This document shows positions 4,747-26,260 of a stretch of DNA of 35,173 nucleotides, in pieces. Positions within the stretch are counted from its first letter, which is position 1. The number at the start of each line of letters is the position of its first letter. The notes under the pieces were generated by a model. That model was given only the letters and a program-made list of their open reading frames with translations. It ran no database searches and had not been told where the DNA came from. The position numbers and the translations under genes were made by a program. Source of the DNA: Kiloniellaceae bacterium (GTDB lineage Bacteria > Pseudomonadota > Alphaproteobacteria > Kiloniellales > J153); NCBI GenBank assembly GCA_021776055.1, contig JAJFGP010000041.1, positions 1-35,173 on the forward strand, read 5' to 3'.

Positions 4747-4782
4747 ATCGGGGCGACGCTCTAGATCAGGACGGCGCCCTTT

Positions 4783-6168: not shown

Positions 6169-6175
6169 ATTGTCG

Positions 6176-7144: not shown

Positions 7145-7155
7145 GGTTGTGCCCC

Positions 7156-7728
7156 TTAAACCTGCTTGTAGCGAAAGCAATCCGTCGTGTGGTCGTTGAC
7201 CATGCCCACCGCCTGCATGAACGCATAGACGATGGTCGGGCCGACAAAGCGGAACCCGCGCGCTTTCAAGGTCTTTGACATGGCCTTCGATACATCGGTT
7301 TCCGCCGGCACATTCGACAGACTTTGCCAGTGGTTGACCTTTGGTTTGCCGTCCACGAAGTCCCACAGAAAGGCCGAGAATCCGTCGCCTTCCGCCATGA
7401 TCTCCAGCCAGCCACGGGCGTTGCCGATGGTCGCCTCGATCTTAGCCCGGTTGCGCACGATCCCCGCATCGGCCATCAGGCGCGCTACGTCATCGGGGGT
7501 ATAGGCGGCGATTCGCTGTGGATCGAAGTCGTGAAAGGCGCGGCGGAAATTATCGCGTTTCTTGAGAATGGTCAGCCACGAGAGCCCGGCTTGAAAACCA
7601 TCGAGGATGAGTTTCTCGAAAAGGGCCTGGTCATCCCATTCGGGCACGCCCCATTCTTCGTCGTGATAGGCGGTATACAAAGGATCGGCGCCGACCCAGG
7701 CGCAACGCGTTTCGGCTTTCTTGGACAT
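7156..7728 (-). CDS. tag: DNA-3-methyladenine glycosylase I
   Basis: The 190-residue protein matches Tag across its length. The N-terminal RCAWVGADPLYTAYHDEEWG contains Cys9 and His22, and the C-terminal VNDHTTDCFRY contains His180 and Cys184; together these four give the structural zinc site known in E. coli Tag. The helix-hairpin-helix glycosylase core includes LFEKLILDGFQAGLSWLTIL with the conserved acidic residue. It removes 3-methyladenine from alkylated DNA in base excision repair. It begins 17 bases after the soxT stop and ends 11 bases before the ureohydrolase start, so co-transcription with sulfur genes is likely but may have no functional meaning. Confidence 0.95.
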   Translation of the reverse strand: MSKKAETRCAWVGADPLYTAYHDEEWGVPEWDDQALFEKLILDGFQAGLSWLTILKKRDNFRRAFHDFDPQRIAAYTPDDVARLMADAGIVRNRAKIEATIGNARGWLEIMAEGDGFSAFLWDFVDGKPKVNHWQSLSNVPAETDVSKAMSKTLKARGFRFVGPTIVYAFMQAVGMVNDHTTDCFRYKQV

Positions 7729-7745
7729 CAGGCTCCTATTGGCTG

Positions 7746-8843
7746 TCAGTAACGGGCGAAGCCGGAGCGCAAGACACCGCGCAGGCTACCTTCGATCAGG
7801 TACTTTAAGCCGAAATAGGCGCCGATAAAAATGGAACCTAGCGCCAGCGGCGCGCTCAGGGACAAGGTCGACAGGCCGGTAATCCCCTGGCCGATGGTGC
7901 ATCCCATGGCCAGGACACCGCCGAAACCCATCATCGCCGCGCCGGCGAGATGGCGCAGCATTTCCTTCTCGTCGTCAAAGGCCTCCAGGCGAAAATCGCG
8001 CCGGCCTCGGCTGGCCAGAAAGGCACCGACGATCACACCGCCCACCGAGGCGATGCCGAAGTTGATGGTCGCGCCGCTGAAGGTCATGACATAGACCAGC
8101 GCCCGGCCCACGGGCGCGACGAAGGTAAAGGAAGCCAGGGCCGTGGGCTCGAAGGGATCGGCCCCGGCGACGCCGGTGGCAATCCAGCCGAAGGCGATCA
8201 GCAGGCCGATAATCGCGCCGCCCGCCACATCGCGTCGGCTGCGCCGAAAAGCCGGGTCCTTGAAGCAATAAAGCGCCAGGGCCGCGACCATGGCGGTGAC
8301 CAACAGGGCGCGGACCAGCGTGACATCGACGGCCAGCAGCCAGGCCAAGGCATCGGGAATGCCCTGATTGCCGATGCCGGACAACGCCGCGTTCGCTGCC
8401 TCGATGACATAGACCCGGCCCATCCCGGAAAGCCCGCGCAAGGTTGCGTAGGCGACAATGCCGAGCACCAGGAAATCGACCAGCGCCTTTAGATCGCCAC
8501 CGCCGAGGCGTACCATGGAGCCATAGGCGCAGGTGCCGACAAGGGCCATGCCGAAGCCGAAACAAAGCCCGCCGATGATGGCGCCGAGCCAGCCGAAATC
8601 GGGGACCAGGTAGATCGACTGATAGATATCGACGACCCCGGTCATGTGCAGGGTCTGGGTCGTCAATGTCGCGGTGGCAATGGCCAGCGCCCAGGCGCGT
8701 AGGCGCCGATGATCGGTGGTCAGGAAAGCATCCGCGATGGCGCCCAAGGTGCAGAACTGCATGGCGCGCGCGACGGCGCCCAAAACGATGCCGCCGGCAA
8801 AGCCGAGCAGCGCGACCAAGGTGGTTACGGGCAGACCGTCCAT
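7746..8843 (-). CDS. soxT: YeeE/YedE-family sulfur-compound permease (SoxT-type)
   Basis: The 365-residue multi-spanning membrane protein belongs to the YeeE/YedE (TsuA, sulf_transp) family, whose characterised members import thiosulfate. Conserved cysteines thought to pass thiosulfate along the channel are visible in MQFCTLGA (Cys31), LVGTCAYGS (Cys105) and MGCTIGQGITG near residue 310. Nine or more hydrophobic helices are evident. It starts 24 bases after the soxR stop on the same strand, the arrangement seen for soxT next to soxR in other sox clusters. The likely role is uptake of a sulfur compound that feeds sensing or assimilation. The symbol is by context and family, not by a close match. 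Confidence 0.87.
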   Translation of the reverse strand: MDGLPVTTLVALLGFAGGIVLGAVARAMQFCTLGAIADAFLTTDHRRLRAWALAIATATLTTQTLHMTGVVDIYQSIYLVPDFGWLGAIIGGLCFGFGMALVGTCAYGSMVRLGGGDLKALVDFLVLGIVAYATLRGLSGMGRVYVIEAANAALSGIGNQGIPDALAWLLAVDVTLVRALLVTAMVAALALYCFKDPAFRRSRRDVAGGAIIGLLIAFGWIATGVAGADPFEPTALASFTFVAPVGRALVYVMTFSGATINFGIASVGGVIVGAFLASRGRRDFRLEAFDDEKEMLRHLAGAAMMGFGGVLAMGCTIGQGITGLSTLSLSAPLALGSIFIGAYFGLKYLIEGSLRGVLRSGFARY

Positions 8844-8867
8844 TGAAGCCTGTCCATTGAGGCTACA

Positions 8868-9254
8868 TCAAACTCGCACGAGGGTCCGCTTGGCCGTAAC
8901 GCCCGCCTTGCCTTGCGTGCCGTTTGGCTCGCAAAACATCTCGTAGAGCAAGTCGATGACCCGGCGCACATCCGTGCTGGCCAGGGAGTAGTAAATAGTC
9001 TTGCCGTCGCGGCGGAAATTGACCAGATGATCGGCGCGCAGGCGGGCCAGTTGCTGGGAAACCGTCGGTTGGCGCAACGCCAGCAGGCTTTCCAACTCGG
9101 TCACCGACTTCTCACCCTCGGCCAACAGGCAGAGCAGCAACAGGCGATTCTCATTCGCGAACGCCTTGAGGAAATCGCTGGCCGCCTCGGCGCTATCCAT
9201 CATCGCCTTCATCTCGTCAGCCGAATCGATTTGCCGGTCGCCTGCTGCCATCAT
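8868..9254 (-). CDS. soxR: SoxR: ArsR-family repressor with persulfide-sensing cysteine pair
   Basis: From the preferred start the protein is 128 residues and shows the ArsR winged helix: SDFLKAFANENRLLLLCLL, then VTELESLLALRQPTVSQQLARLRADHLV (recognition helix) and the wing RRDGKTIYYSL. Cys42 and Cys108 fall at almost exactly the positions of the reactive pair in SqrR/BigR-type repressors (Cys41 and Cys107 in SqrR), which form polysulfide links and release DNA when reactive sulfur rises. The ATG at 9254 has GGAG seven bases upstream; an earlier ATG at 9299 has no such signal. It would repress the sox island through the AT-rich sites listed here, including one in front of itself. Confidence 0.92.
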   Translation of the reverse strand: MMAAGDRQIDSADEMKAMMDSAEAASDFLKAFANENRLLLLCLLAEGEKSVTELESLLALRQPTVSQQLARLRADHLVNFRRDGKTIYYSLASTDVRRVIDLLYEMFCEPNGTQGKAGVTAKRTLVRV

Positions 9255-9330
9255 TCTCGTGCTCCATTCGGGCGCCAAAACGCCAACCGCTCCAGCCACG
9301 CCAACGCGGCGCCCTGCTCGAACCGCCTGT

Positions 9331-9357
9331 ATTTATATCACAAACGGCGAATATGAT
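9331..9357. promoter_or_regulatory. Candidate SoxR operator A, upstream of soxR
   Basis: This AT-rich patch in GC-rich DNA reads ATTTATATCA, seven bases, then CGAATATGAT. Read on the minus strand it is ATCATATTCG...TGATATAAAT, matching the sox-island motif at 18157-18196 in elements and order. It lies 77 bases upstream of the soxR start, consistent with autoregulation of soxR-soxT. Confidence 0.6.
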
Positions 9358-9421: not shown

Positions 9422-9931
9422 TTAGAAGGCAATTTTGTCGGCAATCGCCTCGATTCCCGCGCGGGCACAGACATCGTCCGCGTCGCCGCCAGGGGCCCCG
9501 GAAACGCCGATCCCGCCAACGATGGAGCCGGCCGCCTCGACTGGTACCCCACCGCCGACCATCAGCGCATCGTTGACGAAGCGTATGTTCGTTATCGGTT
9601 GATCGGAGGTGGTGAGCTTGGCCAACTCCAAGGTATCGCTACGGAAGCTAATCGCGGTCCAAGCCTTGCGCCGCGCCGTATCCGGCGTATGCGGGCCGGC
9701 GAAGCGGTCGCGCAGCAGGATTTGCGGGGTACCGAACCGGTCGACCACGGAAACCGCCACTTGATAGCCGCTGTCCTGGCAGTTGCGCAGGGCTGCTTGG
9801 GCCATCTCCAAGGCCGTGGCCGGGCTGAGGACTTTGAACTCGATCAATGCCGGTTCCTCGGCGGCCGCGCCGCGTAGGGCAGCGAATGCTATGGCTGCCG
9901 TTAGAATGATCATCCGGTTGAGTCTCGCCAT
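9422..9931 (-). CDS. Exported GlcG/HbpS-like heme-binding protein
   Basis: The 169-residue protein has a signal peptide (about residues 1-24, cleavage after GAAA). A GlcG/HbpS (DUF336) domain follows: ALEMAQAALRNCQDSGYQVAVSVVDRFGTPQILLRDRFAGPHTPDTARRKAWTA, and near the end the family's GGGVPVE...VGGIGVSGAPGGDADDVCARAG. Related HbpS proteins bind heme and act in oxidative-stress sensing or heme handling; others of the family are uncharacterised. It follows soxS by 36 bases on the same strand, so it is probably expressed with soxF and soxS. The role in sulfur oxidation is unknown; heme delivery or binding for the periplasmic Sox cytochromes is one possibility (inference). Confidence 0.85.
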   Translation of the reverse strand: MARLNRMIILTAAIAFAALRGAAAEEPALIEFKVLSPATALEMAQAALRNCQDSGYQVAVSVVDRFGTPQILLRDRFAGPHTPDTARRKAWTAISFRSDTLELAKLTTSDQPITNIRFVNDALMVGGGVPVEAAGSIVGGIGVSGAPGGDADDVCARAGIEAIADKIAF

Positions 9932-9967: not shown

Positions 9968-10342
9968 CTACGAGCCGGCACCTGCGTCGGTCTTGCGCAG
10001 CAATTCGCCGAACAGACCCCAAAAGTGATCTTCCCCGGGGTAACCGATGATTCGCCCCATCTCCCGCCCGTCTTCAACGAGCACAAAGGTCGGCGTATAG
10101 ACGATACCTTCGATATGGCGGAGATCGGCGGGTCGTGGCGTATCCACATCGACCCGGCGTAAGGGCACGCGCTGCCCTTCCTCGGTCTTGTGGTAGATGA
10201 TCCCGACATCCCGGTTCCATGCCGCGCACCATGGGCAAGTTGCACTCTCGAACATAACCAGCTCGGCCGCGGCGACATTGATCGACATCAAGCCGATCAG
10301 CAGGCCGGCCAGAAGGGTGTTCATCCATCCACGGCGGATCAT
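9968..10342 (-). CDS. soxS: SoxS: periplasmic thioredoxin-like protein
   Basis: The 124-residue protein has an N-terminal signal or anchor (about residues 1-26, ending INVAAAE). A short thioredoxin fold with the active site SATCPWCAAW (Cys36 and Cys39) follows, and the cis-proline segment YTPTFVLVEDG lies further on. SoxS in Paracoccus keeps SoxY reduced and active with electrons delivered by the membrane protein SoxV, which is encoded at 15717-16460. The start codon overlaps the soxF stop (ATGA), so the two are translationally coupled. Confidence 0.9.
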   Translation of the reverse strand: MIRRGWMNTLLAGLLIGLMSINVAAAELVMFESATCPWCAAWNRDVGIIYHKTEEGQRVPLRRVDVDTPRPADLRHIEGIVYTPTFVLVEDGREMGRIIGYPGEDHFWGLFGELLRKTDAGAGS

Positions 10343-11610
10343 CCGAACATCTCCTGGCTCATTTTGGCGTACCAGTCCTCGGCCTCCTGCGCGGTGGCGG
10401 CGCGCTCGGCGTTGCTTTCATCGGGCCCGCTGATAAAGCCGTCGTGTTCGTCGAAACCAACATCGCCGGGCCCATAGCGGCCCCCGACCTTCACGGCGTT
10501 GCCGCTGGCGATCAGGCTCCAGCAGGCGTTGCTAAGCAGATTAGTATCGGCAGTGGTGCCCGTCAGCGCGGCGCGCACGGCGGCGGCGCACAGCTTGCCT
10601 TGTTCGCTGGCGGCAAAGGCGGCTTTGGGCATATGGCCGGCATCGATGGCATCGCCGAGCACGTGAATATCCGGCTGCAACCGCGAGGCCAAGGTATGCG
10701 GATCAACCGGGCACCAGCCGCTCTCATCGGCCAGACCGGCGCGTTGGGCGATGTCACCGGCGCGTTGCGGCGGGATGATGTTGGCCACGGCCGGGCGAAA
10801 GGTCTCACCGTCGCTCATAACGGTGCCGACTTGCGCGTCCACCGCCACCAAGCCGCCCGTGAACTCGGCCGGCAGCCATTCGATCATATCGGGATAGAAG
10901 CGCTGCCAGCCGTCCTCGAAAAGCTTCTGTTTCGCGAACGAATCCTTGGCATCCAGAATCACGACTTTCGAGCGCGGCTTGTGCTGTTTTAGGTATTGCG
11001 CCACCAGGCTGGCGCGCTCGTAGGGGCCGGGTGGGCAGCGATAGGGCAACGCCGGTGGAGCGATCAGCACCAGGCCACCATCCTCCATGGCCGCGATCTG
11101 TCGCCGCAAAAGGCGCATCTGCGCGCCGCCATGCCAGGCATGCGGCATGGTCTGTGCCGTGGTTTCGTCATAGCCGTCGATGGCATCAATGCGGAAGGCG
11201 ATGCCGGGCGACACAATAAGCCGGTCGTAGGCCAAGGTGCCGCCGCTTTGCAATGTCACCTGATGGCGCGCCGTATCCACGTCGATCGCCCGGTCATGCA
11301 TCAGACGGAGGCGGTCGTCGGCGCCCACGCGATCGTAGGTATGGGTAATCGACTCAAGCGACCGAAGGCCGCCGATGTAGTGGTTGGCGAAGTAGCAGGT
11401 GGTATAGCGCGCCGCCGCCTCGACCAATGTGACATCGATCCCGGGCGCATCCTTGGCCAAGCGCCGAGCCACCGTGAGGCCACCGGGTCCGCCACCGATG
11501 ACCACCACGCGCGCCTTGGCGGCACGCACGAGCGACGGACTGGCAACGGCCGCGATCGCTGCGGCGCCCGCCAGATGCGCAAAAGTCCGCCGTGTCAGTT
11601 TCGCTGTCAT
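10339..11610 (-). CDS. soxF: SoxF: flavocytochrome c sulfide dehydrogenase flavoprotein subunit
   Basis: The 423-residue protein begins with a twin-arginine signal (KLTRRTFAHLAGAAA), then the FAD-binding segment ARVVVIGGGPGGLTVARRL. Cys72 in the TTCYFANHYIGG stretch and a second cysteine in YRCPPGPYERAS correspond to the redox-active disulfide of FCSD flavoproteins. These periplasmic enzymes oxidise sulfide and pass electrons to a cytochrome subunit (SoxE/FccA). No soxE is present in this window, so the partner is elsewhere or another c-type cytochrome serves. ATG 11610 is chosen because it gives a proper Tat leader; an in-frame ATG at 11646 would add 12 residues. It is divergent from soxX across operator B. 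Confidence 0.93.
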   Translation of the reverse strand: MTAKLTRRTFAHLAGAAAIAAVASPSLVRAAKARVVVIGGGPGGLTVARRLAKDAPGIDVTLVEAAARYTTCYFANHYIGGLRSLESITHTYDRVGADDRLRLMHDRAIDVDTARHQVTLQSGGTLAYDRLIVSPGIAFRIDAIDGYDETTAQTMPHAWHGGAQMRLLRRQIAAMEDGGLVLIAPPALPYRCPPGPYERASLVAQYLKQHKPRSKVVILDAKDSFAKQKLFEDGWQRFYPDMIEWLPAEFTGGLVAVDAQVGTVMSDGETFRPAVANIIPPQRAGDIAQRAGLADESGWCPVDPHTLASRLQPDIHVLGDAIDAGHMPKAAFAASEQGKLCAAAVRAALTGTTADTNLLSNACWSLIASGNAVKVGGRYGPGDVGFDEHDGFISGPDESNAERAATAQEAEDWYAKMSQEMFG

Positions 11611-11646
11611 GTGCCGGTTCGGCCACCGTGAAACACATTGAAACAC

Positions 11647-11682
11647 ATTCGCACTTGATATTTTATAAAATCCGAATATGAT
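11647..11682. promoter_or_regulatory. Candidate SoxR operator B, between soxF and soxX
   Basis: The site reads ATTC-N3-CTTGATAT-N11-CGAATATGAT and sits in the 187-base space between divergent soxF and soxX. Operator D upstream of soxC has exactly the same elements and the same spacing. The surrounding bases are strongly AT-rich against a GC-rich background. Control of both directions by SoxR is inferred. Confidence 0.7.
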
Positions 11683-11797
11683 TTTACAGTCAAGCTAGGT
11701 AATTTCAGGGTAACGCATGGCTTGGCACAAGGCTCTAAACCATAACAGACGGCTGACAAACAGCCGTTGAAAACCGGAAACGGGGGAGGAGACAAAG

Positions 11798-12268
11798 GTG
11801 GCTTGGCGTTTGCACTCATCGCTTCGTGTCGTGCTTAGTGCCGCGATCTTCGCCGCGTTGCCACTGGCCGTGGCGGCGGAGGAGTTGGTGGCCTACAAGA
11901 TCACGAACAAAACCAGCATCGAAAATTCCCTCACGGGTAAGCCCGGCGACCCGGTGAACGGGCGCAAGGTGGCGATCAATCGCAAGCAGGGCAACTGCCT
12001 GGCTTGCCATGCATTACCGGTCCCGGAACAACCGTTTCATGGCGAGGTCGGACCCGATCTCTCGGCCGCCGGCAGTACCTTGAGCGAAGGCGCGATCCGA
12101 CTGCGCATCGTCAATCCCAAGGCCGTGAATCCGGATACCTTTATGCCGGCCTTCTACCGAAACGACGGCTTTACCCGGGTGGCCAAGAAGTTCCAGGGCA
12201 AAACGATCCTCAGCGCCGAACAGGTCGAGGATGTTGTCGCCTATCTGATGACGCTGAAGGGCAACTAG
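11798..12268 (+). CDS. soxX: SoxX: c-type cytochrome subunit of SoxAX
   Basis: The 156-residue protein starts at GTG with GGGGAGGAG upstream. A signal peptide (about 1-27) precedes a single heme motif CLACH at residues 67-71, with Met116 in TFMPAFYR the likely axial ligand. SoxX is the small monoheme subunit that pairs with SoxA to couple thiosulfate oxidatively to the SoxY cysteine. It heads the run soxX-Y-Z-A-B-V, behind operator B. Confidence 0.96.
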   Translation: MAWRLHSSLRVVLSAAIFAALPLAVAAEELVAYKITNKTSIENSLTGKPGDPVNGRKVAINRKQGNCLACHALPVPEQPFHGEVGPDLSAAGSTLSEGAIRLRIVNPKAVNPDTFMPAFYRNDGFTRVAKKFQGKTILSAEQVEDVVAYLMTLKGN

Positions 12269-12320
12269 GCGTCAGACCAGGAGGGGGTTGCACCGCTCCC
12301 AAGGACCAAAGGTCAGGAAC

Positions 12321-12800
12321 ATGAACACAACGAAACACAGCACGAAATTGAACCGCCGGGAGATTCTTTTCTCCCTGGGGGCCGGAAGCATGGCCTTGGT
12401 GACTCTCACCATGCTGCCCGGGCTCGCGCGCGCGGATAAGACCGCGGCCGATGCGGAGATCAAGAAAATCCTCGGCGGCAAAACCGCGCAGGACGGGCGC
12501 GTCACCCTGGATGTCCCGCAGATCGCCGAGAACGGCAACACGGTACAGCTAGAGGTCGCGGTGGATAGCCCCATGACCGAAAAGGATTACGTCAAGGCAG
12601 TCCACGTCTTCGCCGACGGCAATCCGGTGCCGAACGTGGCTTCGTTCCACTTCACGCCAGCGTCCGGAAAAGCGGTGGCGGCGACGCGCATGCGTTTGGC
12701 GAAGACCCAGAACGTGATCGCGCTGGCGGAAATGAGCGACGGCAGCATCTATTCGACCCAGGCCGCGGTGAAAGTCACCATCGGCGGCTGTGGCGGGTAA
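12321..12800 (+). CDS. soxY: SoxY: sulfur-carrier protein
   Basis: The 159-residue protein has a twin-arginine leader (KLNRREILFSLGAGS) and ends KVTIGGCGG. Cys157 in the C-terminal GGCGG is the swinging-arm residue that covalently carries sulfur intermediates through the Sox cycle. The ATG at 12321 follows AGGAAC; the in-frame ATG at 12288 would place 11 unrelated residues before the Tat signal and is less likely. It is exported as a SoxYZ complex with the next gene product, 12 bases downstream. Confidence 0.97.
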   Translation: MNTTKHSTKLNRREILFSLGAGSMALVTLTMLPGLARADKTAADAEIKKILGGKTAQDGRVTLDVPQIAENGNTVQLEVAVDSPMTEKDYVKAVHVFADGNPVPNVASFHFTPASGKAVAATRMRLAKTQNVIALAEMSDGSIYSTQAAVKVTIGGCGG

Positions 12801-12812
12801 GGAGTAAGGGCA

Positions 12813-13142
12813 ATGGCGAAGTCAAAACCGCGCATCAAGCTACCCGCGAAGGCGGCAAAGGGTGAGATCATTCAGATCAAGACTCTGATCTCGCACAAGA
12901 TGGAATCGGGTCAGCGCAAGGACAAGAAAACCGGCGAAAAGATTCCACGCCAGATCATCAACAAGTTCGTCTGCACCTTCAAAGGCAAGGAAGTGTTCAG
13001 TGCCGATTGGCACGGCGCGATCTCGGCCAACCCGTACATGTCGTTTTATACGGTGGCGACGGAAAGCGGTGCCTACGAGTTCACCTGGACCGACGATGAC
13101 GGGTCCGTCTATTCGAAGAGTGCAAAGATCGCGGTAAGCTGA
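12813..13142 (+). CDS. soxZ: SoxZ: partner of SoxY
   Basis: The 109-residue protein is the full SoxZ immunoglobulin-like domain: IKLPAKAAKGEIIQIKTLISHKMESG at the start and ANPYMSFYTVATESGAYEFTWTDDDGSVYSKSAKIAVS at the end. It has no signal peptide, as expected, since it is co-exported with Tat-targeted SoxY. It holds SoxY and helps present the carrier arm to SoxAX, SoxB and SoxCD. AAGGAGTAAGG lies just upstream of the start. Confidence 0.97.
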   Translation: MAKSKPRIKLPAKAAKGEIIQIKTLISHKMESGQRKDKKTGEKIPRQIINKFVCTFKGKEVFSADWHGAISANPYMSFYTVATESGAYEFTWTDDDGSVYSKSAKIAVS

Positions 13143-13181
13143 GCGGAAGAAAAGAAACCAAATCCAAAGGGAGGCGATGCC

Positions 13182-13985
13182 ATGCGGCGAGGCATTTTGG
13201 CGGCGGCATTGGGACTAGGGCTTAGCGCGGTGTTGGCCGGACCGGCCATGACCGAGCAATCGCAGTGGGGCCCCTATCAAGTGGGCGATGTGCGCAGCGG
13301 TTATACCTACGCTGCCGGGGAAACCCGAGACATGCAGGACGACGATTTCGTCAACCCGGCCATGCTGTGGGTCGATAGCGGGGCCGAGCTGTGGGAAACG
13401 GTCGACGGCGCCGCCGGTAAATCCTGCGCCAGTTGTCACGGCGATGCGGCCGAGTCCATGGCGGAGGCCGGGACCAAGTTTCCGGTCTACTTCGAGCCGT
13501 CGGGCAAGATGATGAACCTGGAGCAACGCATCAACTTCTGCCGCACCGAGAACATGAAGGCGGATGCGTTCAAATGGGAGGGGCAGGAGCTGCTCAGGTT
13601 GACGACGTTCGTGCGCAATCAATCGCGCGGTAAGCCGATGAACGTCAAGATCGATGGCCCGGCCGCGCCCTTCTATGCGAAGGGCAAGGAATTTTACGAG
13701 ACGCGGCGTGGCCAACTCGACATGGCGTGCTCCAGTTGTCACGTGGATAACGCCGGTAACATGCTGCGGGCCAACCTGCTGAGTCAGGGCATGAGCAATG
13801 GCTTCCCCACCTACCGCCTGAAATGGCAAGGGGTGGGCTCGCTGCACCGGCGCTTCCGTGGCTGCAACAAGCAGGTTCGGGCGCAACCCTATGACTATGG
13901 GTCCGAGGAGTACGTGAACCTGGAGCTTTATCTGGCCGACCGGGCGCGCAGCTTGCCTGTTGAGGCGCCGGCGGTACGCAACTAA
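13182..13985 (+). CDS. soxA: SoxA: diheme cytochrome subunit of SoxAX
   Basis: The 267-residue protein has an N-terminal signal (to about residue 24) and two heme motifs, CASCH at 82-86 and CSSCH at 183-187, so it is the diheme type. Cys120 in INFCRTENM fits the known heme-1 axial cysteine, and Cys228 in RRFRGCNKQVR is the catalytic cysteine ligand (persulfidated in studied enzymes). With SoxX it catalyses formation of the SoxY-thiosulfonate. GGGAGG sits seven bases upstream of the ATG. Confidence 0.97.
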   Translation: MRRGILAAALGLGLSAVLAGPAMTEQSQWGPYQVGDVRSGYTYAAGETRDMQDDDFVNPAMLWVDSGAELWETVDGAAGKSCASCHGDAAESMAEAGTKFPVYFEPSGKMMNLEQRINFCRTENMKADAFKWEGQELLRLTTFVRNQSRGKPMNVKIDGPAAPFYAKGKEFYETRRGQLDMACSSCHVDNAGNMLRANLLSQGMSNGFPTYRLKWQGVGSLHRRFRGCNKQVRAQPYDYGSEEYVNLELYLADRARSLPVEAPAVRN

Positions 13986-14006
13986 CAAACTTGCCGAGGG
14001 CGGGCG

Positions 14007-15695
14007 ATGTTCAGCCGGCGTGACTTTCTACAGGTGACGGCGGCAACGGCGGCGCTGACCGGGGCGCTCGGTCAAATGGCGCGTGCCGCGGCGCGGCAGG
14101 CGATTTCTCAGGACGATCTGCTGCGCTTCGATGCCCTGGGCCAGGTCACGCTGCTGCACATGACCGATCTGCACGCCCAATTGATGCCGATCTATTTCCG
14201 CGAACCGTCGATCAACGTGGGTGTCGGCGCGGCACGCGGCCTGCCGCCGCATCTCACCGGCAAGGCGTTGCTCGATGCCTTCGCTGTCTCCGCCGATACG
14301 CCCGAGGCCTATGCCCTAAGCAGTGAGGACTTCACCGCCCTCGCCAAGACGTATGGCCGGGTCGGCGGCCTCGACCGCCTGGCCACCCTGGTGCGGGCAA
14401 TTCGCGCCGAGCGGCCGGGAAACACCCTGTTTCTGGACGGTGGCGATACCTGGCAGGGGTCGTACACCTCGTTGGTCAGCACTGGGGCCGATATGGTCGA
14501 GGTGATGAACGTCCTGCGCCCCGATGCCATGACCGCTCATTGGGAATTCACTTACGGTACCGACCGGGTGAAAGAACTGGTGGACCAACTCGCCTTTCCC
14601 TTCCTGGCCGGCAACGTGCGCGATACGGAATGGGACGAGGAGGTCTTCGAGGCAACGGCGACCTTCGAACGCGGCGGCGTCAAGATCGCCGTCATCGGTC
14701 AGGCGTTTCCGTACACGCCGGTTGCCAACCCGCGTTATCTGATCCCCACCTGGTCTTTCGGTATTCAAGAATCGCTAATCGCCGAACGGGTCGCCGCGGC
14801 GCGCGCCGACGGTGCTGAACTGGTGGTCTTGCTCAGCCACAACGGCTTCGATGTGGACCGCAAGTTGGCGGCTCGGGTGGATGGTATCGATGTGATTCTG
14901 ACGGGCCATACGCACGATGCCCTGCCGGTGGCGGTTACGGTCAATAAGACCTTGCTGATTGCGTCCGGCTCGCACGGCAAATTCCTCTCGCGTCTCGATC
15001 TCGAGATCAAGGACGGGGCCGTGGCCGACTACCGCTATCGCCTGATCCCGATCCTCACCGATGCCATCGCGCCCGATCCCGAGATCGCGGCCCTGGTGGA
15101 AAAGATTCGCGCGCCGCACGCCGCCGAGCTATCACGGGTGCTCGGCCAAAGCGAAAGCCTGCTTTACCGGCGCGGCAATTTCAACGGCACCTTCGACGAT
15201 CTTATCTGTCAAGCGCTGTTGCAGGAACGCGATGCCCAGATCGCCTTATCGCCGGGTTTCCGCTGGGGCGCCACGCTGTTGCCGGGGCAGGATATTACGG
15301 TGGAGGATGTCTACAACCAGACCGCCATCACCTACGCCAACACCTATCGTAACGAGTTCACCGGAACCTTCCTGAAAGAGGTGCTGGAGGATGTGGCCGA
15401 CAACCTCTTCAACCCCGACCCCTACTACCAGCAGGGCGGCGACATGGTGCGAGTCGGCGGCCTCGGCTATACCATCGATATTGGCAAGCCTATCGGCCAG
15501 CGCATTTCGGATCTGACCTTGCTCGCCGATGGCTCGCGCATCGAGGCCGAAAAAAACTACGTGGTTGCCGGTTGGGCCTCGGTCAACGAGGGAACTGACG
15601 GCCCGCCGATCTACGATTTGGTCTCCCGCTATATCCAGGCGCAAAAAGTCATCCGCATCGACGATAAGCCGGCGATCAAAGTCCTGGGCGCCTAG
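14007..15695 (+). CDS. soxB: SoxB: thiosulfohydrolase
   Basis: The 562-residue protein has a Tat leader (FSRRDFLQVTAATAALTG), then the metallophosphoesterase fold with dimanganese ligands in LLHMTDLHAQ (Asp54, His56), FLDGGDTWQGS, AHWEFTYG, VLLSHNGFD and ILTGHTHDALP. The C-terminal 5'-nucleotidase-like domain is complete. SoxB releases sulfate hydrolytically from the SoxY-bound intermediate. Length and order match the family throughout. It follows soxA by 21 bases and precedes soxV by 21. Confidence 0.97.
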   Translation: MFSRRDFLQVTAATAALTGALGQMARAAARQAISQDDLLRFDALGQVTLLHMTDLHAQLMPIYFREPSINVGVGAARGLPPHLTGKALLDAFAVSADTPEAYALSSEDFTALAKTYGRVGGLDRLATLVRAIRAERPGNTLFLDGGDTWQGSYTSLVSTGADMVEVMNVLRPDAMTAHWEFTYGTDRVKELVDQLAFPFLAGNVRDTEWDEEVFEATATFERGGVKIAVIGQAFPYTPVANPRYLIPTWSFGIQESLIAERVAAARADGAELVVLLSHNGFDVDRKLAARVDGIDVILTGHTHDALPVAVTVNKTLLIASGSHGKFLSRLDLEIKDGAVADYRYRLIPILTDAIAPDPEIAALVEKIRAPHAAELSRVLGQSESLLYRRGNFNGTFDDLICQALLQERDAQIALSPGFRWGATLLPGQDITVEDVYNQTAITYANTYRNEFTGTFLKEVLEDVADNLFNPDPYYQQGGDMVRVGGLGYTIDIGKPIGQRISDLTLLADGSRIEAEKNYVVAGWASVNEGTDGPPIYDLVSRYIQAQKVIRIDDKPAIKVLGA

Positions 15696-15716
15696 GCCTA
15701 GGCCAGGACAACACGA

Positions 15717-16460
15717 ATGGGCGGCTTGGAAATTGGTATCGCAGGCGCTTTCGGGGCCGGCATTCTTTCGTTTCTTTCACCGTGCGTTCTGCCCCTGGTG
15801 CCGCCGTATCTTGCCTTTATCGGCGGCCTAACCCTTGACCAGTTAGCCGAGGAGCAAGTGGCCGGTGCGGCGGTCGGGCGGCGCGTCTTCGCGGCAGCGG
15901 TCGCCTTTGTTCTGGGCTTTACCACGGTCTTTGTCGTACTGGGGATCACCGCCTCGGCGATCGGACAGGTGGTGGCCAGTAACTTCGACCTGCTGGGCCA
16001 GATCGCCGGTGTCATCATCATCGTCATGGGCCTGCATTTCTTGGGCATCCTGCGCTTGAGCATGCTCTACCGGGAGGCTCGGTTTCACGTGAACAGCCGG
16101 CCCGTCGGATTGCTTGGTGCCTATTTGGTCGGCCTTGCGTTTGCTTTCGGCTGGACGCCGTGCGTTGGTCCGGTTTTAGCCACCGTTCTCATGGTTGCCG
16201 GGGCCGAGGACTCGGCCATGTACGGCGGCAGCCTGCTCGCGGCCTATGCGCTGGGTATTGGGGTGCCGTTCTTGGCTGCCGCCCTGGCGGCGCGGCCGTT
16301 CATGAATTTCATGGCCCGGTTTCGCCGCGTGCAGGGGCACGTGGAGAAAGTCATGGGTGGTTTGCTGGTGGTCACCGGTGTGCTCTTCCTCACCGGTTCC
16401 ATGTCCGAAATGGCCTACTGGATTCTAGAGGCTTTTCCCAGCCTGGGCCGCATTGGCTAG
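15717..16460 (+). CDS. soxV: SoxV: CcdA-type membrane thiol-electron transporter
   Basis: The 247-residue protein with six predicted membrane helices belongs to the CcdA/DsbD-beta family. The two redox cysteines are Cys23 in LSPCVLPLVPPYLAFIGG and Cys149 in GWTPCVGPVLATVL. It carries reducing equivalents from cytoplasmic thioredoxin to periplasmic thioredoxins, here SoxW and SoxS. Its stop codon lies three bases before the palindromic element at 16464-16733. Confidence 0.93.
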   Translation: MGGLEIGIAGAFGAGILSFLSPCVLPLVPPYLAFIGGLTLDQLAEEQVAGAAVGRRVFAAAVAFVLGFTTVFVVLGITASAIGQVVASNFDLLGQIAGVIIIVMGLHFLGILRLSMLYREARFHVNSRPVGLLGAYLVGLAFAFGWTPCVGPVLATVLMVAGAEDSAMYGGSLLAAYALGIGVPFLAAALAARPFMNFMARFRRVQGHVEKVMGGLLVVTGVLFLTGSMSEMAYWILEAFPSLGRIG

Positions 16461-16463
16461 GGC

Positions 16464-16733
16464 CTAGTGGATAGAATCCAACATATGATGCCCATACGAT
16501 CCCGTATCCCGGTTTCTCGGCAGGAGAAGGCCCGTAGGCGATGCCAAAGCATCGTCGAGGGTTTTCGACGCCCCGAGAAGCCGGGATACGGGACCCGAAG
16601 GGCGGCTTCCCGAGCTCACCGGCCGCGTTGCACGACGCTTGTGATGCTCCAGCATCACGGCGCATCGCGCGCCTCGCCGGGTGAGCTCGGGAAGCCGTCG
16701 TATGGGCATCATATGTTGGATTCTATCCACTAG
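16464..16733. mobile_element. MITE-like palindromic element with 36-bp perfect terminal inverted repeats
   Basis: Bases 16464-16499 and 16698-16733 are perfect 36-base inverted repeats, each ending in CTAG at the outer edge. The outer CTAG may be a 4-bp target duplication, leaving 32-bp repeats. The interior holds two more long stems, 16501-16520 with 16573-16592 (20 bp, one mismatch) and 16603-16620 with 16680-16697 (18 bp). These are capped by small hairpins at 16539-16554 and 16641-16658. The whole 270 bases can fold as a three-way junction. There is no transposase. It lies exactly between convergent soxV and the next gene, whose TAG stop lies in the element's terminal CTAG. Confidence 0.85.
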
Positions 16734-17458
16734 CCGAAGCGCAAAAAGAGAATCTGCTCGAACGAGCGTAATTCGCGCAAGGTATTGATCAATAGATGTT
16801 GGTCGCGTTCATCCAGGGCCCGCCAGATGCGCTTAATGCCTTCTTCCGATCCGTCGAGCAGACGAATGAACGCCGCATCCTCGCGCACCGCCGCCGGCGC
16901 TTGGTCCCGGCAGCGGTCGAACATATAGCCAAGCACGGCGGTCTTCGCGGCGATGTCGCGCGCGATATCGGCGGAGGCAAGATCCGGCTCGCCCCGGCGG
17001 TACGCCCACAACGCCGCCATGGCCGCCGAGACATCGTTGATCCGGTCGGAAAAGACCGTAACACCGTTGCGCCGGCGCAGCTCGGCCAATTCGTCGCGGA
17101 TCGGGGCGATGGCCTCGAGCCCCGCCTCGACCTGCCCGGCATCGATGGCGGCGAGGGCTTGGTTTATTCGAGCGCCAATACCAGCCAGGGTGGTCGCCCA
17201 GGCCGGATCGTCGGCGAAGGCATCGGGTGCGGCTTGCGCGTACCGGACAGTTACGTCGCGCCACTTGGCCGCCATGTCATCCAGCTCGAACGCGGCCAAT
17301 GCCACATTCCCGGTGCGCAGGTAACTGATCGCGCCGCGATAGGGCGCATACGCCGCCGCCACCGCGCCGTTGAAGTCCGCCAACTCCCCCGCGCGCGCCG
17401 CGCTGGGGGCCGCCAACAGGCTTGCAATGAGAATAAGTCGCCGACCCCAAGCGCGCAT
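16730..17458 (-). CDS. Exported helical protein of unknown function, internal duplication, sox-linked
   Basis: I do not recognise this family. The 242-residue product has a signal peptide (about 1-24, AAPSAARAG) and an all-helical mature part with no cysteine motif of a heme. The mature protein looks like two repeats of about 105 residues. AYAPYRGAISYLRTGNVALAA resembles AAMAALWAYRRGEPDLASADI, and INQALAAIDAGQVEAGLEAI resembles IKRIWRALDERDQHLLINTL. This suggests a tandem four-helix-bundle arrangement. The ATG at 17458 is preferred because GAGAGGGA lies upstream of it; ATG 17482 lacks a binding site. The stop codon falls in the edge of the palindromic element. It is divergent from soxW across operator C. 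Confidence 0.75.
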   Translation of the reverse strand: MRAWGRRLILIASLLAAPSAARAGELADFNGAVAAAYAPYRGAISYLRTGNVALAAFELDDMAAKWRDVTVRYAQAAPDAFADDPAWATTLAGIGARINQALAAIDAGQVEAGLEAIAPIRDELAELRRRNGVTVFSDRINDVSAAMAALWAYRRGEPDLASADIARDIAAKTAVLGYMFDRCRDQAPAAVREDAAFIRLLDGSEEGIKRIWRALDERDQHLLINTLRELRSFEQILFLRFG

Positions 17459-17480
17459 AGAAAACCGTCCCTCTCTAGGC

Positions 17481-17520
17481 ATTCAGACGAAGTTATGATA
17501 ACATGCGAATACGAGAATAT
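17481..17520. promoter_or_regulatory. Candidate SoxR operator C, between unknown exported gene and soxW
   Basis: An AT-rich stretch contains ATTC, then TTATGATAA and CGAATACGAGAATAT. The ATTC-to-CGAAT offset is 25 bases, close to the 26 of operators B and D. The match is weaker than in those two. It lies between the divergent exported protein gene and soxW. Confidence 0.45.
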
Positions 17521-17578
17521 AACCGATGAAGAGACGGTCGGCCACGATTGGCGCGGCGGAATTTTTGGGGTTGGAGCC

Positions 17579-18148
17579 ATGGCGACGCGGCGAAATTTCA
17601 TGATGGTTTGTGCCGGTGCGGTGGCCGCGCTGACCGGCTGGCCGGCGCGCGCGGCGGTGCTCACGGATGACGGCCTGTATTCCGAGGAATGGTTCCTGGA
17701 GAGCTTCCTGGACCTGGCCGAGGATCTGCGGGAGGCCACGAGCCAAGGCAAGCGCTTCGCAATCATGTGGGAACAGCGGGGTTGTCCCTATTGTCAGGAG
17801 ACGCACCTGGTCAACTTCGCCCAGCCGGACATCAACAGCTTCGTGCGCGAGAACTTCGTGATCCTGCAACTCAATATGTTCGGCTCACGCAAGGTCACCG
17901 ACTTCGACGGTGAGGAGCTGGAGGAGCGTGACCTGGCGCGCAAGTACAGCGTGCGCTTTTCGCCGACCATTCAATTTTTCCCCGACGATCCCACCGCCCT
18001 GGAGGGCAAGACGGGCCAGGAGGCCGAGGTGGTGCGAATCCCCGGTTACCTGCAGCCGCCGCATTTCCTGGCCATGTTCAAGTTCGTCCGCGAAGAGGCG
18101 TATCAGAGCACATCCTTGCGGGATTATTTGAAGCAGGCGGTTCGCTAG
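17579..18148 (+). CDS. soxW: SoxW: periplasmic thioredoxin
   Basis: The 189-residue protein has a leader (ATRRNFMMVCAGAVAALTG, Tat-like, ending ARA) and a thioredoxin-fold domain with the active site WEQRGCPYCQETH (Cys69, Cys72). A cis-proline region RFSPTIQFFPDD follows. SoxW is the thioredoxin partner of SoxV in known sox clusters. The frame is open far upstream, but that part overlaps the opposite-strand gene and lacks a start signal; the ATG at 17579 gives a proper leader. Confidence 0.88.
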   Translation: MATRRNFMMVCAGAVAALTGWPARAAVLTDDGLYSEEWFLESFLDLAEDLREATSQGKRFAIMWEQRGCPYCQETHLVNFAQPDINSFVRENFVILQLNMFGSRKVTDFDGEELEERDLARKYSVRFSPTIQFFPDDPTALEGKTGQEAEVVRIPGYLQPPHFLAMFKFVREEAYQSTSLRDYLKQAVR

Positions 18149-18156
18149 GGGTAAAA

Positions 18157-18196
18157 TCATATTCAAACTTGATATAATATAAGAAACGAATATGAT
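18157..18196. promoter_or_regulatory. Candidate SoxR operator D, upstream of soxC
   Basis: The site reads ATCATATTC, then CTTGATAT, eleven bases, then CGAATATGAT. Elements and spacing from ATTC onward equal those of operator B, and ATCATATTC is close to the reverse complement of the closing CGAATATGAT. It lies 42 bases upstream of the soxC start and gives soxCD its own promoter region. Confidence 0.7.
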
Positions 18197-18237
18197 TTAT
18201 CGGCATTCTGGATGCCAACCCAATCGACGGGGGCGTA

Positions 18238-19539
18238 ATGTCGCGTGAAACACCAAAAACAGGGCCGGGGAAAACGGGGACTCGCGTAGACCGGCGGGCG
18301 TTCATGCGCGGTAGCGCAGCTTTGGCGAGTGGATTGGCAGCGGGTGCCGCCGGTGGACGAATTGTCCGCGCCGACAGTGCCGCCGGCCAGCCACCGAATG
18401 TGCCCGACTGGTCGCGCTATCTCGGGTCCGGCGTCGATGCGGCGCCTTATGGCGCGCCCTCGCCGTATGAGAGCGAGGTGGTTCGCCGCAACGTTCCGTG
18501 GCTGACCGCGACCCCGGAATCATCGGTGAATTTCACGCCGCTACAGGACCTGCACGGCTTTGTCACGCCGAACGGTCTGTGTTTCGAGCGGCACCATGGC
18601 GGTGTCGCCGAGGTCGACCCGGCCGATCACAGGCTGGTCATTCACGGCTTGGTCGAAAAGCCGCTTGTTTTCACCGTGGACGACATCCGGCGCTTCCCAC
18701 CGGTTAGCCGCTTCTACTTCTTGGAGTGCGCCGCCAACGGCGGCATGGAGTGGCACGGGGCGCAACTCAATAGCTGTCAGTACACCCACGGCATGGTTCA
18801 TTGCGTGCAATGGACGGGCGTGCCGCTGAAGACCCTGCTGGCGGAAGCGGGCCTCAAGCCGAAGGCTAAATGGCTGTTGGCCGAGGGTGCCGATGCCGCC
18901 GGCATGACCCGCTCGGTGCCCTTGGATAAAGCGTTGGATGATTGCCTGGTCGCCTACTCGCAGAACGGCGAGCGCCTGCGGCCAGAGCAAGGCTATCCTT
19001 TACGCCTGCTGGTGCCCGGCTGGGAAGGCAACATGTGGATCAAGTGGCTGCGCCGCATTGAGGTCGGCGATATGCCCTGGCACACGCGCGAGGAAACCTC
19101 GAAGTACACGGACGTGATGGCCGACGGTAAGGCACGGCAATTCACCTGGGCGATGGACGCCAAGTCGGTGATTACCGATCCGTGCCCGGAAAAGCCCATG
19201 CGGCGCCAGGGCTATCACCCGATTACCGGCCTTGCCTGGTCCGGCCGCGGGGCCATCAAGCGCGTGGATGTCTCCGTGGACGGCGGCAAGAACTGGCACA
19301 CGGCGCGCTTGGATACCCCGGTTCTCTCTAAGTGCCTGACCCGGTTTTATCTGGATTGGAATTGGAGCGGCGAGGAGGTCTTGCTGGAAAGCCGCGCTAT
19401 GGACGAGACCGGCTACGTGCAGCCGTCCATCGTCGAGTTGCGCAAGGTGCGCGGCGAAAATTCCATCTACCACAACAATTCAATTCAGACGTGGTTGGTG
19501 AACGCCAGCGGCGAGGTCGAGAATGTTCAAATCTCATAG
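18238..19539 (+). CDS. soxC: SoxC: sulfane dehydrogenase molybdenum subunit
   Basis: The 433-residue protein has a twin-arginine leader (RVDRRAFMRGSAALASG; Arg19, Arg20) and the sulfite-oxidase-type molybdopterin domain. The predicted Mo-ligand cysteine is Cys164 in FYFLECAANGGMEWHG. A C-terminal dimerisation domain is recognisable in WSGRGAIKRVDVSVDGGKNWHTARL. With SoxD it oxidises the sulfane sulfur left on SoxY, a six-electron step that gives complete thiosulfate oxidation. The gene overlaps soxD by 17 bases. Confidence 0.96.
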   Translation: MSRETPKTGPGKTGTRVDRRAFMRGSAALASGLAAGAAGGRIVRADSAAGQPPNVPDWSRYLGSGVDAAPYGAPSPYESEVVRRNVPWLTATPESSVNFTPLQDLHGFVTPNGLCFERHHGGVAEVDPADHRLVIHGLVEKPLVFTVDDIRRFPPVSRFYFLECAANGGMEWHGAQLNSCQYTHGMVHCVQWTGVPLKTLLAEAGLKPKAKWLLAEGADAAGMTRSVPLDKALDDCLVAYSQNGERLRPEQGYPLRLLVPGWEGNMWIKWLRRIEVGDMPWHTREETSKYTDVMADGKARQFTWAMDAKSVITDPCPEKPMRRQGYHPITGLAWSGRGAIKRVDVSVDGGKNWHTARLDTPVLSKCLTRFYLDWNWSGEEVLLESRAMDETGYVQPSIVELRKVRGENSIYHNNSIQTWLVNASGEVENVQIS

Positions 19540-20167
19540 GGCGGTAGTGTTCGCCGGTGCGCTCGCGGTGGCTGTGGTGGCGTCCGCGGCTGCTATGGGT
19601 GGCGAGCGCTACGGCCTTGGCCAGACGGCCAGTCCGGAACTGATCGCCGGCTGGGATATCGACGTGCGGCCGGACGGGCAAGGCTTGCCAACGGGCCAAG
19701 GCACGGCGGCCGGTGGAGAAACTATTTTCGTGGAACAGTGTGCTTCCTGTCACGGGGAGTTCGGCGAGGCGGTCGGCCGCTATCCGGTGCTTATCGGGGG
19801 TGGCGATAGCTTGGCCTCGCCCGATCCGGTCAAGACCGTGGGCAGTTATTGGCCCTATGCCTCGACCCTATGGGACTATATCCACCGGGCGATGCCATTC
19901 GGCGACGCGCAATCGCTCAGCGTCGACGAGACCTATGCGATCACCGCCTACGTGCTCTATCTGAACGATCTGGTGGCCGAGGACTTCGTGCTCGATCGCA
20001 ACAGTTTGCCAAAGGTCGTGATGCCCAACCGCGACGGCTTTATCGCCGAGGACCCGCGCCCCGATACGCCCGCCGCCGAACCGTGTGTGAGCGACTGCAA
20101 GACCGAGGCCAAGGTCATGTTCAAGGCCAAGCGCCTGGATGTCACCCCCGAGCGCGAGAGCGACTAA
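19523..20167 (+). CDS. soxD: SoxD: c-type cytochrome subunit, single-heme form
   Basis: The 214-residue protein has a signal peptide (about 1-24) and one heme motif, CASCH at residues 73-77. Met124 in HRAMPFGDAQ is a likely axial ligand. It matches the N-terminal cytochrome domain of SoxD (WDIDVRPDGQGLP...GRYPVLIGG). The longer Paracoccus-type SoxD carries a second heme domain that is missing here. The C-terminus instead has a short tail with a CVSDC cysteine pair (188, 192) that lacks the heme-binding His. The start overlaps the end of soxC, so translation is coupled. Confidence 0.92.
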   Translation: MFKSHRAVVFAGALAVAVVASAAAMGGERYGLGQTASPELIAGWDIDVRPDGQGLPTGQGTAAGGETIFVEQCASCHGEFGEAVGRYPVLIGGGDSLASPDPVKTVGSYWPYASTLWDYIHRAMPFGDAQSLSVDETYAITAYVLYLNDLVAEDFVLDRNSLPKVVMPNRDGFIAEDPRPDTPAAEPCVSDCKTEAKVMFKAKRLDVTPERESD

Positions 20168-20221: not shown

Positions 20222-20244
20222 ATTCAAATATGCGAATTTGATAT
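20222..20244. promoter_or_regulatory. Candidate SoxR operator E, upstream of the 403-residue secreted protein
   Basis: The site contains ATTC-N8-GAAT (20222-20237), the arrangement reported for SqrR-type repressors, directly followed by TTGATAT. It is 58 bases upstream of the next start codon. This links the secreted protein gene to the sox regulon independently of soxCD. Confidence 0.65.
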
Positions 20245-20302: not shown

Positions 20303-21514
20303 ATGAAGAGTTTCAAGTTGTTGGCGGTCGGGGCATTCGTTGTCGCGTCGGCGCTAGGTTCCGCCACTGCCATGGCGCACGGCATCGTCAATAAAATCGT
20401 CAACTCGCCGCTGTCCGCTGCCGGGACGGTGAATAATGCGCGCGTGGGGATCAATGTCTATCTACAACGCGCCGAGGCGCCGGGCAAGGAATTCATGGAC
20501 CCCAAGGTGGTCGGCTACGGCATCCCCGCCGGTGGTCACTTGGACGTCGAGATGGGCAACGGGTTCGAGCGCGACTGGGAGGTTGGTCTCTCGCAGGCAG
20601 CGATCATGTTGGTCACCGGGACGCCGCAACAGGGTTTGCCCGGCAAGGCGGTGGGCTATGCGGTTGGCGAGGGCGACAACGATCGCACGTTCCGCATTAC
20701 GCCGACCGGCGACAAAGGGCTGCCGGCCGAGGCGCTGGTCTCGCCGGCGCCTGGTGCCAAGGGGGATCCGATCCGCCAGCGCGGTCTCAAGGTCCTGCAC
20801 ATCGGCTTCATGCAAAGCGCGTTCTTCAATCGCGGCAAGACGGGCACGGTGACCGTGCGTATCCGCGATGCCGCGGGCAATGTGGTCGAGGAGGGAACTG
20901 GGTTAGTCAAATTCCTAACCGCTCCGGTACCGCAAATTCAGCCGACCAATTTCACCGACAAGATGCGTAACCACAACTGGCAACGGGTAAAGGCCGGCGA
21001 TGTGTTGGGCAAGACAGCGGGTACCGTGCCGATCACGCTGATGCTCTATGACAAAGCACCCGCCGGCGATGCGGCTAAGCTGCACGAATACAAGGGCGGC
21101 ATTGCCGGGGTGGGCGTGCTCTCCACCCAGCAACTCAAGGCCATGAACTATGCCAAGCCGGCGACCTTGGCGCGCTACAACGGTGGTTTGATCGTTCAGG
21201 ATACCAACGGCGATGGTGCACTAAGCCCCGATGCGGATCGCATCATCGGCGGTGTCATCGGCGCTGCCCCGGCGGGCGCCAAGGGCCAGGAGTTGCGCAG
21301 TTTGGAAAAGGACGGCAAGCCCATGCTCTCGCAAGCCAGCGAGATGGTCGTGCCCAAGCCCGGCAAGCGCTGGGGCGGCGCTATCATGCAACTGCAATTC
21401 AACGCCGGAAGTGCCGCCGGCAAATACCGCCCGACCCTGGCGCTGCTCAGCAACCCGGACGATATCGCAAGTCCCGACGGGTCGAGCTATACCTATACAA
21501 TCGTGGTGGAGTAG
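20303..21514 (+). CDS. Secreted protein of unknown function at the end of the sox island
   Basis: No named family recognised. The 403-residue product has a clear signal peptide (KSFKLLAVGAFVVASALG...) with predicted cleavage ATAMA-HG, so the mature chain would begin with histidine. The mature part looks beta-rich, with repeated strand-turn patterns such as GTVTVRIRDAAGNVVEEGTG. A loop DTNGDGALSPDADR near residue 300 matches the spacing of an EF-hand or dockerin-type calcium site. There are no cysteines in heme motifs. GGGGAGG precedes the ATG. It has its own operator-like site and follows soxD by 135 bases. A role in extracellular or periplasmic sulfur handling is only inferred from location. 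Confidence 0.8.
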   Translation: MKSFKLLAVGAFVVASALGSATAMAHGIVNKIVNSPLSAAGTVNNARVGINVYLQRAEAPGKEFMDPKVVGYGIPAGGHLDVEMGNGFERDWEVGLSQAAIMLVTGTPQQGLPGKAVGYAVGEGDNDRTFRITPTGDKGLPAEALVSPAPGAKGDPIRQRGLKVLHIGFMQSAFFNRGKTGTVTVRIRDAAGNVVEEGTGLVKFLTAPVPQIQPTNFTDKMRNHNWQRVKAGDVLGKTAGTVPITLMLYDKAPAGDAAKLHEYKGGIAGVGVLSTQQLKAMNYAKPATLARYNGGLIVQDTNGDGALSPDADRIIGGVIGAAPAGAKGQELRSLEKDGKPMLSQASEMVVPKPGKRWGGAIMQLQFNAGSAAGKYRPTLALLSNPDDIASPDGSSYTYTIVVE

Positions 21515-26219: not shown

Positions 26220-26260
26220 TTGTATCTCCACGGCCAATTCATACATTAGAATTATTCTAA
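26220..26260 (+). promoter_or_regulatory. katA promoter with overlapping Fur-family (PerR/Irr-like) palindrome
   Basis: A -35 TTGTAT (26220-26225) and -10 TACATT (26242-26247) are separated by 16 bases. The perfect 15-base palindrome TTAGAATTATTCTAA (26246-26260) overlaps the -10. It resembles PerR boxes and the alphaproteobacterial Irr/ICE box (TTTAGAA-N-TTCTAAA). A near-identical arrangement precedes the peroxiredoxin gene. Confidence 0.75.

Follow-up and report, generated by a model that had tools for sequence, protein, structure and literature searches.

The Sox pathway is a main route by which thiosulfate and sulfide are oxidized, and its list of parts is often regarded as complete. The stretch of DNA analyzed here (the window, 35,173 nucleotides from a Kiloniellaceae bacterium) carries a sox cluster in which soxD is followed by a gene for an exported protein, hereafter the target gene, that a sequence-only reading had proposed as an undescribed accessory factor. 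The locus raises the question of what this protein is, whether its gene belongs to the sox regulon, and what role it may play outside the cytoplasm.

The target gene and its product

The cluster consists of the following genes.

7746 to 8843, minus strand: TsuA/SoxT-like sulfur transporter (PF04143)
8868 to 9299, minus strand: ArsR-family regulator, BigR/SqrR-like, with two cysteines (PF01022)
9968 to 10342: thioredoxin-like gene (weak match, below the Pfam cut-off)
10339 to 11646, minus strand: SoxF-like flavoprotein of flavocytochrome c sulfide dehydrogenase (PF21706, PF09242)
11798 to 12268, plus strand: soxX (TIGR04485)
12288 to 12800, plus strand: soxY (TIGR04488)
12813 to 13142, plus strand: soxZ (TIGR04490)
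13182 to 13985, plus strand: soxA (TIGR04484)
14007 to 15695, plus strand: soxB (TIGR04486)
15717 to 16460, plus strand: CcdA/SoxV-like thiol transporter (PF02683)
17579 to 18148, plus strand: SoxW-like periplasmic thioredoxin (PF13098)
18238 to 19539, plus strand: soxC (TIGR04555)
19523 to 20167, plus strand: soxD-like cytochrome c (position after soxC and CASCH motif; no specific model match)

An HbpS-like (PF03928) exported protein is encoded at 9425 to 9931 (minus strand), between the regulator and the thioredoxin-like gene. Another orphan exported protein, about 250 residues long, is encoded at 16730 to 17482 (minus strand), between the ccdA-like and SoxW-like genes; it has no Pfam match, and its place is kept in two related loci, L011 (57% identity) and L012 (53%).

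The target reading frame starts 135 bases after soxD and is open from 20303 to 21514. It is a real coding sequence, given that homologues match it across nearly its full length at 46 to 71% identity and that comparison with the gene of locus L009 gave a dN of 0.22 and a dS of 1.0, values which also show that it is under purifying selection. The features of the gene are listed below.

20303 to 21514, plus strand: target gene, exported protein of an undescribed family (403 residues, mature part about 39.5 kDa, cysteine-free)
20303 to 20377, plus strand: Sec-type signal peptide, residues 1 to 25, with predicted cleavage between AMA and HG (judged by eye)
20378 to 20950, plus strand: N-terminal module, residues 26 to 216 (from an alignment of 14 sequences)
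20951 to 21511, plus strand: C-terminal module, residues 217 to 403 (conservation between classes is lower)
21200 to 21238, plus strand: calcium-type loop DTNGDGALSPDAD, residues 300 to 312 (from comparison of copies)

The protein is mostly beta, and its conservation is rich in glycine. Five residues of the N-terminal module (Q109, K163, H166, N176, and N216) are invariant in all 14 aligned copies. Cysteine is absent from the conserved core onward in 19 of 21 copies, including all 12 alphaproteobacterial ones, and a protein without cysteine is not itself a thiol client.

Searches of Pfam, NCBIfam, and the PDB returned no family that matches the target protein or its relatives, and profile searches of the PDB gave no match either. 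Against NCBIfam the protein matched 0 families, while soxX, Y, Z, A, B, and C each matched their own models. The earlier remark that no known Sox component fits is thus borne out, and extends to other families. An AlphaFold model of the full-length protein, built from two sequences, was of low confidence (mean pLDDT 36.5), as was that of the N-terminal module alone (mean pLDDT 46.1, pTM 0.52). What resemblance could be detected was weak, sub-threshold, and confined to beta-sandwich domains. No fold was assigned to the N-terminal module from its best PDB matches, which were to beta-sandwich structures (p53 core) with E values of 0.002 or worse and TM scores of about 0.3. No description of the protein was found in the portions of the literature covered by the search (parts of PMC9774250, PMC10451225, PMC6527743, PMC3511301, PMC3445524, and PMC6180224).

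An SqrR-type operator precedes the target gene

The intergenic regions of the cluster contain the following operator elements.

9348 to 9356, plus strand: element before the ArsR-family regulator gene (element scan)
11673 to 11681, plus strand: element between the soxF-like gene and soxX (element scan)
17506 to 17514, plus strand: element before the SoxW-like gene, one mismatch (element scan)
18187 to 18195, plus strand: element before soxC, with an inverted partner at 18157 to 18165
20222 to 20237, plus strand: SqrR/BigR-type operator ATTC-N8-GAAT, sequence ATTCAAATATGCGAAT, an exact match to the SqrR pattern
20233 to 20241, plus strand: copy of the element CGAATATGA with one mismatch, overlapping the SqrR-type operator (element scan)

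The sequence-only reading had placed an SqrR-like site in front of the target gene, and an exact ATTC-N8-GAAT, the published pattern of SqrR sites (PMC9774250), is indeed found 65 bases 5' of its ATG. Exact copies of this pattern occur twice in the window against 0.61 expected, which by arithmetic scales to about 0.002 expected for the 135-base region between soxD and the target gene. The other exact copy in the window (26237 to 26252) lies 30 bases before a gene at 26283 that was named by eye as catalase-like. With one mismatch allowed, the window holds 10 copies where 10.5 are expected, and exact copies are present at 31 places across the genome, so the site by itself proves little. The argument for a regulon rests on an element common to the sox regions and on conservation of the site.

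The common element is the 9-base CGAATATGA. With at most one mismatch it is present in five of the five sox intergenic regions, with six matches in total (mean of 0.23 in 1000 shuffles, none of which equaled 6); over the whole window it is in no excess (8 observed, 5.5 expected). Since CGAATATGA was picked after inspection of the sequences, this shuffle test is partly circular and does not count as independent. Independent support for control of the target gene comes from the published ATTC-N8-GAAT pattern, because it stands in exact form before the gene, is kept in L012, where, as in the window, it lies 64 to 65 bases before the ATG, and is present in L011. A candidate regulator is encoded within the cluster, at 8868 to 9299; its best NCBIfam model is BigR, at 90 bits, below the cut-off of 155.

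Taken together, the operator shared with other sox promoters and the sox genes that adjoin the target gene in relatives indicate that it is apparently a member of the sox regulon, and the tie to sulfur oxidation drawn earlier stands on these two observations. The arrangement resembles the SqrR/SoxR/BigR-controlled clusters of Rhodobacter capsulatus and Hyphomicrobium denitrificans in having an ArsR-family regulator within the cluster, the ATTC-N8-GAAT pattern, and one element at several sox promoters. It differs in the target gene itself, which does not figure in the parts covered of two papers on those clusters (PMC9774250, PMC10451225).

Neighborhoods of the target gene in relatives

In all, 22 copies of the target gene were handled, the window included; genome G808 also gave a match of 34 residues on a second contig, which was left out of this count. 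In L011 and L012 the homologue adjoins soxXYZAB together with ccdA-like and SoxW-like genes. SoxW-like thioredoxins flank it on both sides in L011, and one adjoins it in L009 and in L012, a pairing that may reflect merely the sox context. A thioredoxin and a CcdA-like gene also precede the distant homologue of genome G769. In locus L030 (6594 to 8853), a thioredoxin, a CcdA-like gene, and a distant, lipoprotein-like homologue stand in a row. Next to the sox cluster of L011, at 11224 to 19374, a LysR-type regulator and transketolase, aldolase, and RuBisCO-like genes (named by eye) were observed, which suggests that this locus comes from an autotrophic sulfur oxidizer. In locus L053 of genome G988 (4343 to 8880), two proteins of the 5'-nucleotidase kind, 23 to 26% identical to SoxB, converge just before the homologue.

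Linkage to soxCD, which the sequence-only reading had suggested surveying, is found in the window only, the sox-linked relatives L011 and L012 having soxXYZAB, ccdA-like, and SoxW-like neighbors instead. This bears on the proposal, made in the same reading, that the protein handles elemental sulfur or extracellular polysulfide. As a covalent carrier or binder of such sulfur it would fit membership in the sox regulon, yet none of the 12 alphaproteobacterial copies has a cysteine from the conserved core on, and the soxCD link does not extend beyond the window; we regard this role as very improbable.

Occurrence of the family and co-occurrence with SoxB

Relatives of the target protein were found in 5/61 genomes of the window's order, 3/385 of a class sample, and 2/398 of a phylum sample (the window being included in each), in 1/190 genomes of a second class sample, and in 7/24 genomes from the order of G263, 1/100 from the family of G769, and 9/321 from the class of G769. 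One carrier, L002, is an alphaproteobacterial metagenome-assembled genome. Collections of plasmid and viral contigs contained no homologue. A tree of 18 copies separated the gammaproteobacterial copies from the others with full support; the position of the long G769 branch is unsure. Three of the 22 copies are broken (L011, 9365 to 10540; L035, 8263 to 8832; and L053, 9201 to 10330) by deletions at both ends, an internal deletion, and, in a single-contig genome, one in-frame stop, so that the protein is dispensable or these are errors of assembly.

Across the family, soxXYZAB is present on the fetched stretch in 3/22 copies, including the window, several of the contigs being short. Beyond these three, L009 has a SoxW-like gene nearby and L010 has FCSD- and SorA-like genes. 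By gene linkage, then, the homologues are mostly unlinked to sox, which the earlier reading had held to speak against its proposal; this is offset by the co-occurrence of soxB in the same genomes. Scored with TIGR04486, SoxB is present in 5/5 target-bearing genomes of the window's order versus 29/61 (Fisher p=0.02, ancestry ignored) and in 8/9 target-bearing genomes of G769's class versus 127/321 (Fisher p=0.003, ancestry ignored), where two samples of 321 genomes were taken as the same because they share handles of gene-bearing genomes. In the order of G263, SoxB was found in none of 10 genomes, seven of them target-bearing, and G769 also lacks it; the protein therefore does not need Sox. It favors sulfur oxidizers and is not bound to Sox. 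With the co-occurrence and the lack of any family match in the libraries searched, the description of the protein as an undescribed accessory factor is upheld.

Linkage to ECF sigma factors

In five of eight gammaproteobacterial loci, genes for an ECF sigma factor and its anti-sigma factor lie directly upstream of the target gene. The sequence GGAATAAA-N-GCATC stands before these sigma genes, exact in four of the five and with one change in the fifth, and had no further occurrence in 478 kb of loci, overlaps counted.

A similar association occurs within the window's own family. In L010 (genome G005), the target gene and an ECF sigma/anti-sigma pair point away from each other, and SorA-like and FCSD-like genes come after the pair. 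The L010 sigma factor is 47 to 50% identical to three plasmid-encoded ones that precede anti-sigma and sulfite oxidase genes (all three that were opened, among 10 matches listed). The promoter of the SorA-like gene carries GGGAATAAA, which fits the ECF26 consensus, with its -35 motif GGAATA (PMC6180224); no ECF26 motif was found before the L010 target homologue itself. A response to sulfite has been described for the ECF26 factors RpoE1 and RpoE4 (PMC3511301, PMC6527743). The L010 pair resembles the sulfite-responsive ECF26 systems. The gammaproteobacterial sigma factors are more distant, being 30 to 35% identical to that of L010, and have a GGAATA -35 motif before their genes with a different -10; they are at most candidates for the ECF26 group.

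The L010 cluster of sigma, anti-sigma, and SorA-like genes with GGAATA is comparable to the ECF26 regulons of Sinorhizobium meliloti (RpoE4-SorT) and Starkeya novella (SigE-SorAB). Those regulons differ in that other secreted proteins are listed for them in the parts covered of PMC3511301, PMC6527743, and PMC6180224, and in that the plasmid collection, which includes the chromosome-size S. meliloti CP090106.1, holds no target homologue. The window differs as well, with neither an ECF sigma/anti-sigma pair nor an ECF26 promoter at its target gene. SMc02156, an adhesin-like member of the RpoE1/RpoE4 regulon whose co-purification with SorT has been reported (PMC3511301, PMC6180224), is likewise a protein of the sulfite response; it is set beside the target protein by description, the collection with CP090106.1 having no target homologue.

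Recruitment by ECF sigma factors and other regulators is also what would be expected of a general envelope-stress protein, whose presence would mirror the oxidative or sulfite stress that sulfur oxidizers frequently meet and which would have no part in sulfur oxidation. The sigma/anti-sigma linkage, the order in which seven of seven target-bearing genomes lack SoxB, and the patchy distribution (for example, 3/385 in the class sample that includes the window) are consistent with such a protein. We nevertheless consider it unlikely, given the SqrR-type operator in the window, L011, and L012, the element common to the sox promoters, the enrichment of SoxB among target-bearing genomes, and the sulfite-type surroundings of the relatives of the L010 sigma factor. 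That a single protein apparently stands under or beside two different sulfur-responsive regulators is the strongest hint at its role.

The N-terminal histidine and the calcium-type loop

The predicted mature N terminus HG, from which a copper-binding histidine brace had been proposed, is present in the window (AMA/HG at residues 25/26, by eye), and its cleavage place aligns with AD/GIV and similar sequences in relatives. The leader ends of all copies were judged by eye. A predicted N-terminal histidine occurs in 2 of 12 alphaproteobacterial copies, those of the window and L010 (where the mature chain would start HN), which belong to one bacterial family; the other 10 have aspartate, and none of nine distant copies (eight gammaproteobacterial and G769) has histidine at this place. 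The histidine brace is unsupported, because the N-terminal histidine is no trait of the family, and since relatives do without it a brace does not qualify as a function of the family. It could have been gained locally, in the branch of the window and L010. A copper protein of the CopC or lytic polysaccharide monooxygenase (LPMO) type, binding copper through His26 and a second histidine, would have candidates for the latter in H166 (14/14 aligned copies) and H224 (kept in most alphaproteobacterial copies). However, the likeness to such proteins is limited to the predicted first residue in the window and L010, which aspartate replaces in most alphaproteobacterial copies, and there is no Pfam or NCBIfam match of any sort; we give this explanation hardly any credence.

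The calcium-like loop noted earlier, DTNGDGALSPDAD in the window, is kept in G769 and in every alphaproteobacterial copy that extends to it (11/11); these 11 carry Asp at loop positions 1 and 13, with Asp or Asn at 3 and 5. Among the gammaproteobacterial copies it is found, degenerate, in 2/8 (L051 and the damaged L053). The loop is a real feature that many family members do without. Its conserved acidic ligands are like those of EF-hand-like loops (DxDxDG), and it would be expected to bind calcium.

The protein could also be a structural or adhesive component of the envelope or surface, built from stacked Ig-like beta modules and a calcium loop, which would attach cells to mineral sulfur, to one another, or to the matrix during growth on sulfur compounds and itself bind no sulfur species. 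Such a role is somewhat unlikely. The mostly beta, cysteine-free protein with its loop, its glycine-rich conservation, and its weak, sub-threshold resemblance to beta-sandwich domains only is in line with it, whereas the invariance across classes of K163, H166, N176, and Q109 suggests that the N-terminal module carries a site, and most gammaproteobacterial copies have no calcium loop.

Proposed role of the target protein

Our preferred reading, to which we give a little less than an even chance, is that of an exported accessory protein of sulfur oxidation or of the sulfite response. The target protein would be an exported, cysteine-free, mostly beta-strand protein of two modules that is made once the genes of sulfur oxidation are switched on. 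A persulfide-sensing ArsR-type repressor of the SqrR/SoxR/BigR type would sit on positions 20222 to 20237 and, as at the other sox promoters, leave its operator as sulfane sulfur accumulates. Elsewhere among sulfur oxidizers, the gene lies beside an ECF sigma factor, of which that of G005 resembles the sulfite-responsive ECF26 type. The protein would act outside the cytoplasm, probably in the periplasm, as an accessory of Sox or of the sulfite response, and most likely through non-covalent binding of a sulfur oxyanion or a partner protein by the N-terminal module, at Q109, K163, H166, N176, and N216. The loop, with calcium bound, may stiffen the C-terminal module. Ligand binding is the weakest step of this mechanism.

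A more specific version, which we consider quite improbable, is that members of the family sense or buffer a sulfur oxyanion, probably sulfite, in the periplasm. The anion would be held by K163, H166, N176, and Q109; in gammaproteobacteria, where the gene stands in line behind the sigma and anti-sigma genes, the protein would signal to the anti-sigma factor, and in the window's genome it would have come under the SqrR-type repressor. The activation mechanism of ECF26-like systems has been termed hypothetical (PMC6180224), and if the sensor version is true, the protein would be a candidate for how these systems perceive sulfite.

A family of exported proteins that has no database model, apparently belongs to sox regulons in one class, and adjoins ECF sigma factors in the sulfur oxidizers of a second points either to a step outside the cytoplasm that has yet to be assigned or to a connection of sulfur oxidation with the defence against sulfite.
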